From Psychrobacillus sp. NEAU-3TGS (lineage in GTDB: Bacteria; Bacillota; Bacilli; Bacillales_A; Planococcaceae): 64,000 bases of DNA. Positions 2,079 to 53,247 of the stretch are shown here, in pieces (position 1 is the first letter of the stretch; every line of letters begins with the position of its first letter). The stretch spans positions 589,661-653,660 of the forward strand of contig NZ_JAPNOZ010000010.1 of NCBI RefSeq assembly GCF_029955155.1, written 5' to 3'. The translations under genes were made by a program, and so were the position numbers. The notes beneath the pieces were generated by a model. That model made no database searches and was not told the DNA's origin. It worked only from the letters and a program-made list of their open reading frames with translations.

Positions 2079-5000
2079 TCAATCAAAGAAATCGGTTTTA
2101 TCAGCACCTTCAATTATTATACTTCCTGTAATTGATGTTGAAGTAATTTTAAATTGGGTTGTGCCTATTTTTTCAGCTTTAGCTTTTACTCCAGCATTTG
2201 TTAAACGACTATTTATTCGGTTTACTAAATCATCTATTGTCCCGAATTTTGTTGTCAATTGAATTATTGCTGTATTTGTTCCGTCACCAATTGTAAAGGT
2301 GCGATTTTTTGATGTATCTACATCTGTTCCCGTTGCTGTAGAACCCTCAAAAAAGTATGACCAATCTGCACCTAATAAGGTTAATTTTGCACTTGAACCT
2401 GTTTCTGATGACATTATATTAAAAACATTTGAATACTCCGGTGATTCCCACGAAGAAGCTGTTATCATATTAAACCCTGCCATACCATACTTTTCTTGCA
2501 TATGCATTTGAATCGCACTATTCACGATCCCCGACATAGCCGCACCAACCGAGACTTCTCGTGATAATGCCCAGTAAAGAGAGATTGGTATAGTCTCATC
2601 GCTATCCGCTGTCTGTATACGCAAGCTGAAGTCCTTACGGTTACCTGTAAAATCAATCACTGTTACGGGTTTACTCACTAATTTTGCTACTGTTGCAGGT
2701 GTTGTGGAAAAGTCTAATGTAACCAACTCTTTACTTGTATGACTTATATAATTTTTTTGTTCCACTTTCACTATAAAAGTACCCGTTTTAATAACTTGTC
2801 CATCTTTCAGTACATTTACTACTACCGAAGTCTGACCTGTCATAGAGCTACTCGTTATACTAATTACTCCATTTTCTTGATTAGCCCCTAAGGAAATTAT
2901 TCCATTTGATAGATCATTTGGTGTAACTACTAGTGTTTCATTTGTTTCTAGAACCACTATATTTTCTGTGTTGGTTTCATTCGTAGTTAGCGTAATATTA
3001 TGAAGGCCGGTAATTTCTTTCACAATGCTATTTTGGAACATGGTCATCGCAGTTTGCAAAGCTATTTCTGCAGTTTGAATTTGTTGTTCAGTTTTACTTG
3101 ATGCATTATCCAATACTAAATTTGCTGCATTTATAGCGTCATTCAATACATTTTTTGAACCTACCACATATTGACCAACAGCTACTCCTTCTACTGCGTT
3201 TGTGTGCAAAGTAGTGGCATTATTGATGGTTATTGACAATCTTGTGGTATCTCCTGCTTTGACTACTTCAGCTTTGAAAATTGTGATTGCTGACGTTAAG
3301 GTTGTAATCGCGTTGTCTAGGTCTGCTTGTGTTTGGTTACCCGCATCTGAGTAAATGGCTTTCGCTACCGTTATTGCTTGGCCTAACGTTTCTCGAGCTA
3401 CAGCCGATGCTTGTCCTACACCTATTCCTTCCTTATGATTTACAAGTAGTTGTTCTGCTTCTGTTATTGCTCTAGTTAATACCGTGGCATCTCCAGCTTT
3501 TATCACTTGTGTTTCAAATGTCATAATCGCTGTTGTTAAGATAGTGCTCGCGTTGTCTAGGTCTGCTTGTGTTTTACTTGCAGCATTCGAGTGAATAGCT
3601 TTTGCTACCGTTATTGCTTGTTCGAATGTTTCTCGAGCCGAAGAAGATGCTTGTCCAACACCTGTTCCTTCCGTATGATTTACAAGAAGTTGTTCTGCTT
3701 CTGTTATTGCTCTAGTTAATACCATGGCATCTCCCGCTTTTACCACTTGTGCTCCAAATGTCGTAATCGCTGTTGTTAAGATAGTGCTCGCGTTGTCTAG
3801 GTCTGCTTGTGTTTTACTTGCAGCATTCGAGTGAATAGCTTTTGCTACCGTTATTGCTTGTTCGAATGTTTCTCGAGCCGAAGAAGATGCTTGTCCAACA
3901 CCTGTTCCTTCCGTATGATTTACAAGAAGTTGTTCTGCTTCTGTTATTGCTCTAGTTAATACCATGGCATCTCCCGCTTTTACCACTTGTGCTCCAAATG
4001 TCGTAATCGCTGTTGTTAAGATAGTGCTCGCGTTGTCTAGGTCTGCTTGTGTTTTACTTGCAGCATTCGATTGAATAGCTTTTGCTACCGTTATTGCTTG
4101 TTCGAATGTTTCTCGAGCTGAGGCCGATGCTTGTCCTACGCCTGTTCCCACTGCATGATTGTCTAGTAATTGTTCTGCTGTTGTGATTGCTCCATTTAAT
4201 GCTGTAGCATCTCCCGCTTTTACCACTTGTGCTTCAAATGTAGTAATTGCTGTTGTTAATGTAGTGTTTGCGTTGTCTAGTTCTGCTTGCGTTTGGTTAT
4301 CTGCATCTGAGTAAATGGCTTTTGCTACCGTTATCGCTTGTGCTAATGTTTCTCGAGCTGCAGCCGATGCTTGTCCAACATTTGTTCCATCCGCATGATT
4401 TACTAGTAGTTGTTCTGCTTCTGTTATGTTTCCGTTCAATACTGAGGCATCTCCCGCTTTTACTACTTGTGCTTCAAATGTAGTAATCGCTGTTGTTAGG
4501 ATAGTGCTCGCGTTATCTAGGTCTGCTTGCGTTTTACTTGCAGCATTCGAGTAAATAGTTTTTGCCGTTCCTATCGCTTGAGTGAGTGTTTCTCTGACTG
4601 AGACAGGTGCTTGTCCTACGCCTGTTCCTTCCGCATGCTTATCTAGTAGTTGTTCCGCTACCGTTATTGTTTCATTCAATGCTGTTGCGTCTCCAGCTTT
4701 CACTACTTGTGATTCAAATGTGGTAATCGCTGTTGTTAAGATAGCGCTCGCGTTTTCTAAATCTGCTTGAGTTCTATTTGTTGCATCTGTGTAAATAGCT
4801 TTTGCAGTGGTGATGGCTTGAGCTAACGCAATTCGATCGACAGCTACTGCTTGACCGACATTTGCTCCTTCTACATGATTTACTAAAAGTTGCTCCGCGG
4901 CTATTATAACTTCATTTAACGCTAATGTAGCCGCAGCTTTAGTTTTTACTTGATCTATGGATATCTTTGTTGCTAATAATTCTTGCTCAACTGTTTTTGT

Positions 5001-40487: not shown

Positions 40488-40695
40488 GTTTGCGCTCCTT
40501 TTTCGTATTCGGAATAGTTTGTGAAATTTACTAAAGTGTACCATATTATTGGTTGATTACAATGCTTGTTTTTTTAGTGGATCGAGGCGCTGAATGTAGA
40601 GTATTTAGGATTATTTCGTTAGTAAGCACAAATATGAGTAAATCTTGGCTAAAAGTTTTTTACTTAGAAAAATGGTTGCTTATAGGATCGATTTG

Positions 40696-40744
40696 GTTGC
40701 TCTCCCGATAGTTTTAGTTGCTCTCCATGGTCGATTGGTTGTCC
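40696..40744. repeat. Mini-array of a GTTGCTCTCC-type motif with exact 21-bp spacing
   Basis: GTTGCTCTCC begins at 40696 and 40717, and a variant GTTGTCC begins at 40738, giving two steps of 21 bp. It lies in the 361-bp gap between the SRPBCC gene and the argD terminator. Motif and spacing recall the large array at 50.8-51.2 kb. Confidence 0.55.
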
Positions 40745-40828
40745 TTAACCATTTTATGGATTGTTTTATCGGCAAACTACTCTATATTGGGATATAACTT
40801 GGAGGTTGCCGCTTATTTTGACAATTGT

Positions 40829-48978: not shown

Positions 48979-50424
48979 TTAAAAAATGTATTTGGTTTTC
49001 TTGATCAATAAGCTACATGCCACATAAGCAAGTAGTGATAAAATAACGGGCAGCACAACTGTGTGCATGCCGAATAGATTGCCGTATGCTTCATTATAAA
49101 AGTGTAACGCAATATAGGAAATAATTCCAGTAAGCATGGATGCAATAGCTCCATATTTATTGCCATATGACCAGTACAGACCGAGCACAACTGGCCAGAT
49201 AAATGCCGCTTCTAATCCCCCAAATGCAAATAAGTTCAGGAAAATAAGTAAGTCAGGAGGATCCAAAGCCAATAAAAAGACGATGGAACCTAATAGAGTT
49301 GTTACCCCAAAGCTCAGTCGTTTAATCGATTTCTCGCTTGCATCTGGCTTTATGTAGTTAATATATACATCTTTTACAATAGAGGAACTCACTAAAATGA
49401 GTAGCGAATCGACCGTCGACATTATGGCTGCAAGTGGGGCAGCTAGTACTATTCCCGCAAGCCAAGCAGGGAGCACTTTCAGCGTCACAAGCGGTATTAC
49501 CGAATCCGCGATCTCCACACCAGGTAATATTGGCCGAGCAAATATCCCGATTAAATGCATATTCAGCATGATAAATCCAGTGACAATCGTTCCGATTACT
49601 AGTGCTCGGTGCATCGAGCGTGTGTTTTTATAGGACATTGCACGCACTGCCATTTGCGGTAGCCCGACAACACCTACACCGACAAGTATCCAAAAGGACG
49701 ATACATATGCAGCGGATAAATTTCCTTCATTGCCGTATGGCGTCAAAAGTCTTGGGTTCTCTGCAAGTAGATCCTGTATAATGTTCGGTACACCACCGCC
49801 AGCGATTATAACGGCTATCAATAAAATAAGCGTTCCGATGACCATTACGGCTCCTTGCACAGCGTCCGTCACCGCAACTGCTCGGAAACCTCCTATTACG
49901 ACATACACAAGCACCGATATAGCAAAGATAAATAAGGCCGTCGTATATTGCACGCCGGTTAATGATTCGATCAAACGACCACCACCGACCCATTGTGCGG
50001 TCATTGCGGAAAATAAAAAGATAATCATACTAATCGCCGCGAGCAACACAACCACAGAGCTATTATAGCGCACTTTTAAGAAATCAATTAATGTGATTGC
50101 ATTGTACTTTCGAGCTAAAATGGAAAATTTCTTGCCTAACACAAGCAATATAAAATACCCAGTGACAACTTGTGTCATGGCAAGCAGTACCCAACCGAAG
50201 CCCATTGTATAGGCGGTTCCGGGTCCACCTAGAAAACTCGATGCACTTCCATATGTTGCAACCATCGTCATTGCGAGCACAAATCCACCTAGCTCTCGTC
50301 CACCTAAAAAATAGTCTTGTAAAAACCCGCCAGTGGGCGATTCCACTTTTTTGCTGGACCATAAGCCAATGATAAAAATAAGTACTAAAAAAATAACAAG
50401 CGGAATGATCACCCCGATATTCAT
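48979..50424 (-). CDS. panF: Sodium/pantothenate symporter (SSS family)
   Basis: A 481-residue sodium:solute symporter with about 13 spans. It has GGRELGGFVLAMTMVATYGSASSFLGGPG near the N-terminus and AAPLAAIMSTVDSLLILVSSSIVKDVY, the SSS signature region. The preceding YhdT gene, overlapping by ATGA, is the classical companion of panF, which supports pantothenate as substrate. Confidence 0.88.
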   Translation of the reverse strand: MNIGVIIPLVIFLVLIFIIGLWSSKKVESPTGGFLQDYFLGGRELGGFVLAMTMVATYGSASSFLGGPGTAYTMGFGWVLLAMTQVVTGYFILLVLGKKFSILARKYNAITLIDFLKVRYNSSVVVLLAAISMIIFLFSAMTAQWVGGGRLIESLTGVQYTTALFIFAISVLVYVVIGGFRAVAVTDAVQGAVMVIGTLILLIAVIIAGGGVPNIIQDLLAENPRLLTPYGNEGNLSAAYVSSFWILVGVGVVGLPQMAVRAMSYKNTRSMHRALVIGTIVTGFIMLNMHLIGIFARPILPGVEIADSVIPLVTLKVLPAWLAGIVLAAPLAAIMSTVDSLLILVSSSIVKDVYINYIKPDASEKSIKRLSFGVTTLLGSIVFLLALDPPDLLIFLNLFAFGGLEAAFIWPVVLGLYWSYGNKYGAIASMLTGIISYIALHFYNEAYGNLFGMHTVVLPVILSLLAYVACSLLIKKTKYIF

Positions 50425-50681
50425 GACTCATCCCCCTCTTCCTCAAACGACACATCTTTTAAAATATACTTTGCGAGAACTATCACCGTTACCGATATGA
50501 GGATGAACCCGATGATACAGCTATAAAAAAACCAATCTGGGAAGCCGAGGATATACGTGTATTCCTCTACCGGCCGTGAGCCTAGCCCATATGCAAAACC
50601 GAACCACCATACAAAGTGAGCAACCGCCAGACCCACTCCGATCCATGCCTCACGGTGGGCGATTTTAAATCTTGGATCCAT
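50421..50681 (-). CDS. yhdT: YhdT-family small membrane protein (DUF997)
   Basis: An 86-residue protein with two membrane spans (~15-32 and ~50-72) and the family motifs REAWIGVGLAVAHFVWWFGFAYGLG and FPDWFFYSCIIGF. It is routinely encoded next to panF; its role is not established. GAGGTGG precedes the ATG. It overlaps panF by four bases. Confidence 0.88.
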   Translation of the reverse strand: MDPRFKIAHREAWIGVGLAVAHFVWWFGFAYGLGSRPVEEYTYILGFPDWFFYSCIIGFILISVTVIVLAKYILKDVSFEEEGDES

Positions 50682-50794
50682 TAATATCCACCTCTTGCGT
50701 TTATATTATTACATTAGTATAGCGAAGTTATTTTGAGTTGTTAAGGGGAGATTTTTGGTTGGAGATTTAGATGAATCGATTGAGGGAGATTGAT

Positions 50795-51243
50795 TGTTTG
50801 TCCGAGAAGACTCGGGGATTGTCCAAGAATATTGGTTTGTTGTCCAGAACTAGACTGTGATTGTCCAACTATTTGAGCTGATTGTCCAGGTTTTGCATTG
50901 GATTGTCCAACTTCGGGGAGAGATTGTCCAAGTTCTAAATAATTGTCTAACTTTCGTGGGTGATTGTCCAACTATTTGAGCTGATTGTCCAGGTTTTGCA
51001 TTGGATTGTCCAACTTCGCGGAGAGATTGTCCAAGTTCTAATTGATTGTCCAACTTTCGTGCGTGATTGTCCAACTATTTGGGGGGATTGTCCAGGTTTT
51101 GCATTGGATTGTCCAACTTGGGGGAGAGATTGTCCAACTTCTAAATAATTGTCTAACTTTCGTGCGTGATTGCCCATCTATTTGAGGTGATTGTCCAGGT
51201 TTTGCATTAGATTGTCCAACTTCCGGGAGAGATTGTCCAAGAG
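50795..51243. repeat. 103-bp higher-order tandem array built of phased ~20.6-bp TTGTCCA units
   Basis: Copies start at 50858, 50961, 51064 and 51167 (period exactly 103 bp; the last is cut short), with a degenerate lead-in from about 50795. Each copy has five sub-units of 21, 20, 21, 20 and 21 bp, each carrying ATTGTCCA or a close variant; I count 22 motif copies. Because 103 is not a multiple of three, the short overlapping frames on the minus strand change frame from copy to copy and are not a gene. It fills the gap between yhdT and the terminator at 51285. Confidence 0.9.
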
Positions 51244-51284
51244 TGATGTTACTGACGCCAAGCGCAAGTAACAACCCGACAACA

Positions 51285-51326
51285 AAGAAACCAGCTGTTG
51301 CGTTTAGTGCAACAGCTGGTTTCTTT
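51285..51326 (-). terminator. Strong terminator of the S41/membrane-fusion operon
   Basis: A perfect 15-bp stem GAAACCAGCTGTTGC/GCAACAGCTGGTTTC with a 7-base loop, touching the TAA at 51326. Confidence 0.85.
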
Positions 51327-52573
51327 TATTTGTAAGTTAAATATCTAGCGTAGTCTTTCCATCCGATTGCTTTGATGCTATTCCAGGATGGAAGGTCGCG
51401 TGGGAATGGTAGGAAAGCTGGTGCTTCTTCGGTTTTTGGATCTCCGTTAAGTACGATGCTATCGTTTTGCAAGCCTTCCGATAGAATCGCGTGTTTTTTC
51501 AAGTCAAATGGTACTGTTACTTGTGCTCGCATGATTTTTCCATCTGCTGAAAGGGTGTATACTTCGGCAGTTTCATCTGACCGATTTAGGAGCCAGTTTG
51601 CTTTCACGCGCACAGCATTTTCCGCTTCATTTGTGATGAGGACGGAGTTGATGTTTGCTGAAAACGGTAATGATTCTAGTTGTTCTTCTAGTTGGATTTG
51701 TACTTCGTATACAGGTTCATTTGGATTTTCACCAAATTGCTTGTATGCTTTTAGCCACTTGGATTCGTTTGCTGGTACTTGCGTTTTCGCAAAAACAGTT
51801 CCCTCTACTACGCCCTCTCGGTGGGCGGAGTAGTTGTTTACTCGTTGACCTTCGTTGATTTGGTGCCATTCATCTTCTTTTGCATACGTGATGACCGATT
51901 TTTCATTTGCATAAATGGTGATGAAATAGCTGCCATTTCGTTCTTCGATTGTAGCAATATTCCCTTCTATTGGGCTTAGTAATGCTGTTTCGCCAGAATT
52001 TTGGCTAAGTTGAGTGCTGACAATTTTTAGCTTGCGGTCTATTTCAGCAATTTTTTGTTCTGTTTCAGCAATTGCTTGGGAGAAGTTCCCTTCTGGTGAA
52101 ACGTTTACGTCGACTTGCACATTTACGGTCGTTTCATCATTCCCCGCTGTTTGGTTGCTAGTCGAGTTGGAGCCTGCTCCGTAGCGCTCTGATTCAAGGT
52201 TGTCCATAATTTCATGGAGTTGCGATTGTTCTTCCGTGTACGCCTGTTGCTCAGATTCCCATTGCGCACGCTGTGCATCGGCTGACTGTGTATTTAAAGT
52301 AGCAAGCTCCGTTCCTTCTTGTACCATATCTCCTTCTGTCACGACGATGTCAGAAATAGCATCTACATCAACGGTGACTGTCATTTCATTGGTAGGTACG
52401 ACGACGGATTCTTTTTCCAGTTCTTTCGTATATGTACTTTCGTGTACGCGGTCGTATTCATGGACGTAATACGTTCTTTTTATCTCGCTTTTATCCGAAA
52501 ATAAAAGAATGGCGTTGGAAGCAACGAATGTAGATACTACGATGGCAATACCAATTGTTATCACTTTATTCAT
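51326..52573 (-). CDS. Membrane-fusion (HlyD/YknX-like) protein
   Basis: A 415-residue periplasmic-adaptor-type protein. There is one N-terminal membrane anchor (~5-22) and a lipoyl-like beta domain split by a coiled coil (VDAISDIVVTEGDMVQEGTELATLN; then QSADAQRAQWESEQQAYTEEQSQ and AIAETEQKIAEIDRKLKIVS; then LLSPIEGNIATIEE). A beta-barrel follows. Such adaptors normally work with an ABC exporter, but a terminator follows immediately and no ATPase is nearby. The ATG overlaps the upstream stop (ATGA), with AAGGGGGG eight bases before it. Confidence 0.83.
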   Translation of the reverse strand: MNKVITIGIAIVVSTFVASNAILLFSDKSEIKRTYYVHEYDRVHESTYTKELEKESVVVPTNEMTVTVDVDAISDIVVTEGDMVQEGTELATLNTQSADAQRAQWESEQQAYTEEQSQLHEIMDNLESERYGAGSNSTSNQTAGNDETTVNVQVDVNVSPEGNFSQAIAETEQKIAEIDRKLKIVSTQLSQNSGETALLSPIEGNIATIEERNGSYFITIYANEKSVITYAKEDEWHQINEGQRVNNYSAHREGVVEGTVFAKTQVPANESKWLKAYKQFGENPNEPVYEVQIQLEEQLESLPFSANINSVLITNEAENAVRVKANWLLNRSDETAEVYTLSADGKIMRAQVTVPFDLKKHAILSEGLQNDSIVLNGDPKTEEAPAFLPFPRDLPSWNSIKAIGWKDYARYLTYK

Positions 52574-53247
52574 ACGGATTGCCCCCCTTCGAACCATGCT
52601 TCCAGTGGAAGCACTTGGATTCCCGCTACGAATAAAGCAAGAAGCAGTTGGATCACTAGTAATATAATAAAGAGATTGCGAGCCGACATTTCGGTAAATG
52701 CTCTTAAAAAATGAAATTGAATAGCAATGATTAATCCAGTAATTAACGTTAATTCATTGAAAAAGTAAGTAAAGAACTCATTGTTTAAAAATGTTGCAGC
52801 AAGCGGTCCGAATGACAAAATGGAAAAGTCCGTTGTATACCCTACGATTGCATATAAGAAAAAAGTAAATGCTTTTTCCATTAACAGCAGTGCTACGACA
52901 AATAGCTGGATGACCGCCACTTTCGACAATTCAATTTTCGTTATCTTATGTAATAGAAAGGCAATTCCAAAGAAATGGAACGCCATGTAAAGAAAGGACC
53001 AAATAATTGCTCCTATTAAAGATGTCGCTCGCGCAATGACGAATGTATCTTCAAAGCCACCCACAAATAGAGAAGTGAGTCCTTCTGTGTGCATACCCCA
53101 TATATCACGAAGTGCAAAAAGGAGGACTCCAAGTATTGCGATTAGCCAGACACGCTTTTCAAAGCCGCGCATCTTTGTATCTTCTAGTGACCCTATTAAC
53201 TCATTTCGGTTAAAAAGGTATTTCCAAAATCGAAATTCAAAAAACAT
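52570..53247 (-). CDS. Multi-span membrane protein, possibly Yip1/YknW-like
   Basis: A 225-residue integral membrane protein with about five hydrophobic segments after a short amphipathic N-terminus (FFEFRFWKYLFNRNELIGS). Layout and size resemble Yip1-domain proteins such as B. subtilis YknW, which is encoded next to the YknX adaptor; here too the adaptor gene follows, overlapping by four bases. The family call is tentative. AGGGGGA is eight bases before the ATG. Confidence 0.72.
   Translation of the reverse strand: MFFEFRFWKYLFNRNELIGSLEDTKMRGFEKRVWLIAILGVLLFALRDIWGMHTEGLTSLFVGGFEDTFVIARATSLIGAIIWSFLYMAFHFFGIAFLLHKITKIELSKVAVIQLFVVALLLMEKAFTFFLYAIVGYTTDFSILSFGPLAATFLNNEFFTYFFNELTLITGLIIAIQFHFLRAFTEMSARNLFIILLVIQLLLALFVAGIQVLPLEAWFEGGQSV

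Follow-up and report, generated by a model that had tools for sequence, protein, structure and literature searches.

What purpose, if any, is served by an intergenic array in which one short word, TTGTCCA, recurs 22 times at steps of about two helical turns? The array lies in a stretch of 64,000 nucleotides from Psychrobacillus sp. NEAU-3TGS (hereafter the window). Our queries of the open-access literature, which were narrow and left most subscription journals outside their scope, returned no description of such arrays, and the passages of PMC4060949 examined do not report them.

Architecture and Surroundings of the Array

The features of the locus are collected in Table 1. Eighteen of the TTGTCCA-like words are exact and four have one mismatch, giving the number of copies that had been claimed in the original prediction. 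Tandem Repeats Finder bore out the claimed higher-order period as well (period 103, 92% matches), over an underlying period of 21 bp. In contrast, the predicted division of each unit into steps of 21, 20, 21, 20 and 21 bp was wrong: the actual steps are 21, 21, 21, 19 and 21 bp (sum 103), and no two consecutive boxes lie 20 bp apart. The associated claim that all motifs lie on one face of the DNA is thereby weakened, because a 19-bp step is 2 bp off two turns. The array is not a product of chance, since a triple-box TTGTCCA pattern matched 23 times in the whole genome, compared to 0 matches for a reversed-pattern control, and since lag 21 stands out between genes (see below).

Table 1. Features of the array locus (positions in the window)
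Feature	Position	Strand	Method
Array of 22 TTGTCCA boxes, spacing 21 or 19	50798..51239	+	Box search
103-bp super-unit (4 × 21 + 19), 3.7 copies	50857..51241	+	Tandem Repeats Finder
19-bp sub-unit, first	50924..50942	+	
19-bp sub-unit, second	51027..51045	+	
19-bp sub-unit, third	51130..51148	+	
20-pair hairpin, 3′ end of 423-aa gene	51284..51326	.	
Promoter-like TTAACA-17-TATACT preceding DUF997/symporter genes	50716..50744	-	
423-aa gene, 3′ end toward array	51326..52597	-	
DUF997 gene, other side of array	50421..50681	-	
Sodium:solute symporter, next gene after DUF997	48979..50424	-	

On one side of the array, then, is the 3′ end of the 423-aa gene, whose product shares 35% identity with a plasmid protein of Planococcus annotated as an RND efflux periplasmic adaptor; on the other is the promoter-like sequence of the DUF997 and symporter genes. 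Words similar to this promoter-like sequence lie ahead of the next gene in several relatives. The hairpin at the end of the 423-aa gene has a terminator-like score on the + strand only, its tail being T-poor on the gene strand.

Three other observations bear on the window. A palindromic word like GTTACTGGTGCCTGGCACCAGTAAC occurs just before the corresponding array in several species, is found at this site also in species with no array there, and is degenerate in the window (about 51249–51273). Elsewhere in the window there is a second, short 21-bp array (about 40665–40748) of the GGTTGCTCTC (GAGCAACCA) family, which is common in genome G011, as well as a tandem repeat with a 240-bp unit (3308–4805, 6.2 copies, 86% matches).

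Some familiar explanations could be set aside. A coding repeat is contradicted by the 19-bp steps, which break the reading frame, and by the location of the window array between genes; an ORF of 60–130 aa does overlap it, and some arrays contain or overlap ORFs of 60–330 aa. CRISPR arrays consist of identical repeats of about 23–47 bp separated by unique spacers of similar length, whereas here a box of 8–14 bp is followed by a short variable part and the spacers are duplicated within super-units. Tandem sigma-A promoters were suggested by the TGGACA-17-GACAAT pairs that are so striking in the window, but among the arrays tested this feature was limited to the Psychrobacillus TTGTCCA arrays (5–14 pairs of −35/−10 elements per array in five of these, 0–2 in the other 11). 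Finally, intrinsic curvature, modelled over 8 arrays from wedge angles, was inconsistent between arrays, with bend z values from −2.94 to 3.85 relative to shuffled sequences and no excess common to all families.

TTGTCCA Arrays in the Genome and Its Relatives

The genome of the window (G000) carries at least four further TTGTCCA arrays, two on contig C11 and one each on C13 and C16. For five of the G000 arrays a counterpart exists in G006, recognized through orthologous neighbours in four cases and through flanking sequence in one. Across the order, the triple-box pattern was detected in 10 of 261 genomes and 3 of 19 genera, as against 2 of 261 genomes for the reversed-pattern control. The positive genomes were 5 of the 19 Psychrobacillus, one of a second genus (G217, where the array overlaps a 330-aa ORF) and four of a third, taken as Ureibacillus; some of the Psychrobacillus and Ureibacillus relatives carry many such arrays. 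A Ureibacillus massiliensis record even contains a super-unit of 4 × 21 + 19 = 103 bp, with unrelated spacers.

A wider record search returned at least 117 stretches, and 16 of the 80 loci listed were examined. The TTGTCCA box appeared at 20-bp steps in some Sutcliffiella and Bacillus records and at 21-bp steps in another Sutcliffiella record, while the Peptococcaceae loci among the matches listed were dense, simple repeats of the TTGTCCAT type, which are of another sort. In a four-protein tree, the species whose arrays use a different box, TACGAGAG, formed one clade (with G009 mixed), and TTGTCCA was found in G000, G006, G012 and, apart from these, G017.

A Protected Box at a Common Step

Unit logos for nine family sets all showed a conserved box of about 8–14 bp followed by near-random variable bases; that of the TTGTCCA family reads GATTGTCCAa.Ttt before the variable part. 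Summed over the nine sets, the single steps were 21 bp in 596 cases, 19 bp in 104, 18 bp in 14, 20 bp in 13, 23 bp in 5 and 22 bp in 2, a sum that leaves out 30 double steps of 38–42 bp and whose counts are non-independent, as duplicated super-units and orthologous arrays are included. With 700 of 734 single steps equal to 21 or 19 bp, the free drift of spacing among relatives that would have refuted the original prediction is not seen, and the regularity on which it was built is kept, albeit as a 21/19 rule and with a 20-bp step in some other Bacillaceae records. The greater frequency of 19 bp relative to 20 or 22 bp is not predicted by plain helical phasing and speaks against simple phasing on one face.

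Duplicated super-units are recurrent, with lengths of 61, 82 and 103 bp. An exceptional TACGAGAG array in G004, at about 3.06 Mb, has a 92-bp super-unit of 21, 21, 21 and 29 bp.

Comparison of super-unit copies revealed that changes are roughly one third as frequent in the core as in the spacer, as expected of a phased array that binds protein. The changes in core and spacer, respectively, were 30/638 and 123/939 for TACGAGAG (7 arrays qualifying from 13 loci), 19/472 and 78/719 for Ureibacillus TTGTCCA (5 arrays from 7 loci), and 3/110 and 18/166 for the window array (1 qualifying from 5 loci); the sole G014 locus did not qualify. Under the strictest identity filter, the difference persisted for TACGAGAG (19/500 versus 96/825, p 3e-7) and for the window array (p 0.032), but was not significant for Ureibacillus (p 0.074). 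Between species, a four-box array beside aroD in G000, G006 and G012 showed 0/32 differences in the boxes and 12, 18 and 21 of 39 in the spacers. Isolated boxes are not avoided, since most words occur outside arrays at near-chance frequency and TTGGTCTCG exceeds it (8 versus 1.3 expected).

Coexisting Box Families

The search for arrays of boxes not known beforehand took in parts of G000, G011 and G016, a stretch of 60 kb from Ureibacillus and four orthologous sites. The motif-blind scan covered 507 gaps of at least 100 bp, drawn from 464 kb of G000 (the window included) and from 400 kb of each of the other two genomes. Because the underlying ORFs came from a simple script that called the longest first, gap types are approximate; ORFs below 130 aa were counted as gap. 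Lag 21 passed the threshold in 41 gaps, compared to 0–7 for each of the 20 other lags between 13 and 33 and to 0–2 in shuffled sequences. By eye, 37 of the 41 were box arrays, while two resembled coding sequence and two were AT-rich; an ORF of 60–130 aa overlapped the flagged segment in 13 of the 41. The same scan flagged 0/80 gaps in 250 kb of E. coli K-12 and 2/20 in the Ureibacillus stretch. By gap type, lag 21 was flagged in 13/90 convergent, 24/304 tandem and 4/113 divergent gaps, and the four non-arrays comprised two of the divergent and two tandem cases.

One motif per genome, a rule that held at the first sites, failed on this wider look. G000 contains TTGTCCA, TTAGTTGGAA and GAGCAACCA; G011 contains GAGCAACCA, TTAGTTGGAA, AATCGGTCG, CGAGACC and others; G016 contains CGAGACC, CGCGACAAA, AATCGGTCG and others. 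In all, two or more families were seen in G000, G002, G005, G009, G011, G015 and G016. Boxes are also common to species: TTAGTTGGAA to G000, G005 and G011, GAGCAACCA to G000, G010 and G011, and AATCGGTCG to G011 and G016. A simple scheme with one reader per genome and a changing taste is therefore wrong, because families coexist within genomes and cross species. A single box is moreover dispersed over many loci, with 16 places in G004 and, counting box pairs or more, 10 in G016 and 12 in G003.

Another family, TTTAGTTGGAAAA, was noticed on contig C11 of G000 at about 174 kb and 242 kb, as well as in G005 and G011; its reverse complement, TTTTCCAACTAA, resembles ATTGTCCAACTTT.

Different Boxes at One Intergenic Site

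Four orthologous intergenic sites, A to D, were compared across species, site A being the gap behind the 423-aa gene. In three species with TTGTCCA there, copy number varies (22, 15 and 1–2 boxes in G000, G006 and G012, respectively). The same gap holds TCCCCAAA in G014 (29 units), TGTGGAAC in G002 (14), GCAAGTAA in G009 (6) and TACGAGAG in G004, G007, G008 and G015 (14, 18, 14 and 8 units). The site-A box of G014 recurs at site D, and that of G004 at site C; inspection by eye of sites B to D revealed yet other words in G002, G005, G009, G010, G015 and G016. G005 carries TTTAGTTGGAAAA at site D. Hence, 21/19 arrays of different boxes can occupy one intergenic site in different species.

Motif-blind lag-21 arrays outside G000 and G006 were present at site A in 9/17 species, at B in 2/17, at C in 2/17 and at D in 3/16. 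The resulting 16/67 (15/66 if G012, which shares TTGTCCA, is omitted at B) may be set against the 41/507 background, but only roughly, since the excess is due mostly to site A and the site regions were not delimited in the way used for the background gaps.

The array of G009 at site A mixes TACGAGAG-like and GCAAGTAA boxes and could represent a word in transition. In G010, a longer sequence with CGCTTTCCGC...GGTGAGCGATGAGC fills the gaps at sites C and D that hold arrays in relatives.

Location and Orientation

We classified 53 arrays: 17 Psychrobacillus TTGTCCA, 14 Ureibacillus and 22 TACGAGAG arrays of G004 and G008. The set omits orthologous copies (G006, one of G012, most of G270) as well as G005 and G217, and counts one G004 array as two. 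Forty-nine of the 53 adjoin a gene 3′ end, and only 4 lie in divergent gaps, which make up 113/507 gaps overall. A strict terminator-like hairpin with a T tail separates gene end and array in 23 of the 49, by a scan that misses imperfect stems and short T tails, the hairpin in the window among them. Relative to tandem genes, the TTGTCCA arrays are strongly oriented (19 versus 2), while TACGAGAG arrays show no preference (6 versus 7).

In four Psychrobacillus genomes with known origin, 37/41 places of the searched families fell in the origin-proximal half, although these places are clustered and non-independent, some are box pairs only, and the length of G003 was rounded; the corresponding figure in two Ureibacillus genomes was 4/9. 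A marker of replication direction was considered and rejected. The motif strand agreed with fork direction at 11/15 places in G004, 4/4 in G008, 6/10 in G016 and 7/12 in G003, whereas it was consistently opposite (0/9) in the two Ureibacillus genomes, so that no general rule emerges.

Comparison with Known Repeats

We rate the arrays as belonging with the dispersed intergenic tandem repeats, a category that includes the MIRUs of mycobacteria, whose unit measures about 40–100 bp. Like MIRUs, the arrays are direct tandem repeats at several intergenic loci with variable copy number, and those of TTGTCCA have a preferred orientation to neighbouring genes. Unlike MIRUs, they have a basic unit of 21 or 19 bp (super-units of 61–103 bp do exist), made of a box and a free spacer, and different box words are found at one site. 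The REP/BIME elements of enterobacteria are palindromic, foldable units beside gene 3′ ends that bind gyrase or IHF; the arrays share with them the position next to 3′ ends and the large number per genome, but are direct repeats of an asymmetric box rather than palindromes and show no RNA folding beyond that of shuffled sequences.

In iterons and DnaA-box clusters, proteins bind directly repeated sites spaced by about two helical turns. The arrays have the same geometry, their protein sites being putative, but are scattered over many chromosomal loci and show no replication genes among their neighbours (identified for few loci); furthermore, TTGTCCAa differs from the DnaA box, TTATCCACA. DNA uptake sequences of Neisseria are short words with species dialects, and the arrays likewise use a short word at many loci that differs between species; they are, however, phased, built from several words per genome and not linked to uptake.

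Candidate Explanations

The reading that we favour, with a probability of roughly 45%, is that the arrays are phased sites for trans-acting DNA-binding proteins that would act between transcription units. We infer such putative sequence-specific readers because the core is protected, the step is common and the same word stands at many loci with unrelated spacers. The array in the window belongs to a large set of phased strings in which an asymmetric 8–14 bp box stands once per 21 (or 19) bp, mostly in the interval from a gene 3′ end to the following transcription unit. The phasing, the protected core, the dispersal, the position near gene 3′ ends and the use of different boxes at one site are observed; the proteins that read the boxes and the action of the row they would form are putative. 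Each box would most likely be bound by one such protein, and adjacent molecules would be spaced by about two helical turns, so that the array might nucleate a nucleoprotein row. Set between transcription units, the row would probably form a local barrier or organise its surroundings: it could stop read-through, hold supercoils or mark the region. Each of the several box families in a genome would presumably have its own reader, and families would wax and wane between lineages.

Several observations count against phased protein sites: the coexistence and sharing of families, the preference for 19 bp, the TACGAGAG arrays with no orientation, the isolated boxes that are not avoided, the non-significant Ureibacillus result under the strictest core/spacer filter, and the shared ends of a G011 family, which look like the ends of a mobile repeat. 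Our search for a protein that binds the box gave no candidate, and this also weighs against it. Of the three readings offered in the original prediction, a nucleoprotein-array site nevertheless fits best, as the box is conserved against a drifting spacer, the 21-bp period is preferred between genes, and the spacing rule persists in relatives whose words differ; in this respect the prediction is partly supported. A single chromosome-organising locus does not fit the many arrays per genome (37/507 gaps by eye).

The third reading, a plain slippage minisatellite in which 21-bp period and core are unselected relics of growth, could account for the changes in copy number and for the duplicated super-units of 61, 82 and 103 bp. 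It leaves unexplained why the core changes less than the spacer, why one box stands at many loci amid unrelated spacers and why lag 21 alone stands out between genes among lags 13–33, and we consider it improbable. We attach just as little weight to an RNA element, in which the transcribed array would offer its repeated word to an RNA-binding protein or a small RNA. Read-through transcription is plausible beside gene 3′ ends, yet folding energies of 16 strands of 8 arrays were not below those of shuffled controls (z −1.24 to 2.63), five array loci matched no Rfam family at gathering score, and the Rfam hits around the window array were sub-threshold and confined to a hairpin outside it. The indifferent orientation of TACGAGAG arrays to tandem genes and the strict terminator-like hairpins between gene and array in 23 of 49 cases argue in the same direction.

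The main rival, and a close one, is that the arrays are dispersed selfish repeats. Their box would be read by a protein resembling a transposase or recombinase, through which the element is copied or expanded, and arrays would survive only in harmless gaps with no function for the host. Both this reading and that of phased protein sites predict proteins that read the box; they differ on whether the host gains. Selfish repeats would agree with the patchy distribution of the TTGTCCA pattern, the several families side by side in one genome, the variable copy number at site A and local clusters such as the GGTCTCG places at 590–695 kb in G016. They would also agree with shared ends: several arrays of G016 and G011 have, by eye, AATGGC..AA(C/G)GAGAC-like ends, and in 4/5 G011 arrays seen the last unit is followed by TCTCA...GTGAGA (one copy by fuzzy search, the others by eye), with a variant in G010. 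On the other hand, five G000 arrays have counterparts in G006, and the four orthologous sites hold arrays more often than background gaps do, within the limits given above. As regards carriers, one pattern tried in viral contigs had no match, and neither did the window array when compared with plasmid and phage records (BLAST low-complexity filter on), so that phages and plasmids were dropped as its vehicles. Taken together, we regard selfish repeats as quite possible, if on balance doubtful.

Implications

The constancy of the spacing rule, while the word differs between strings and between species, suggests DNA-binding sites rather than random stutter. More broadly, the arrays might amount to a genus-wide marking of intergenic regions by DNA-binding proteins, each with its own word, using common 21/19-step arrays at partly conserved sites and with families that expand and shrink between lineages. 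This wider picture is rather unlikely as it stands; if true, it would give bacteria an equivalent of satellite DNA whose readers co-evolve with it. If the binding reading holds, about one in fourteen of the gaps scanned (37/507) would hold a protein-binding array. A constant step with changing words would then provide a natural experiment on the evolution of DNA-binding specificity across many sites, and the arrays would allow a direct test of how adjacent transcription units are kept apart in Gram-positive bacteria.
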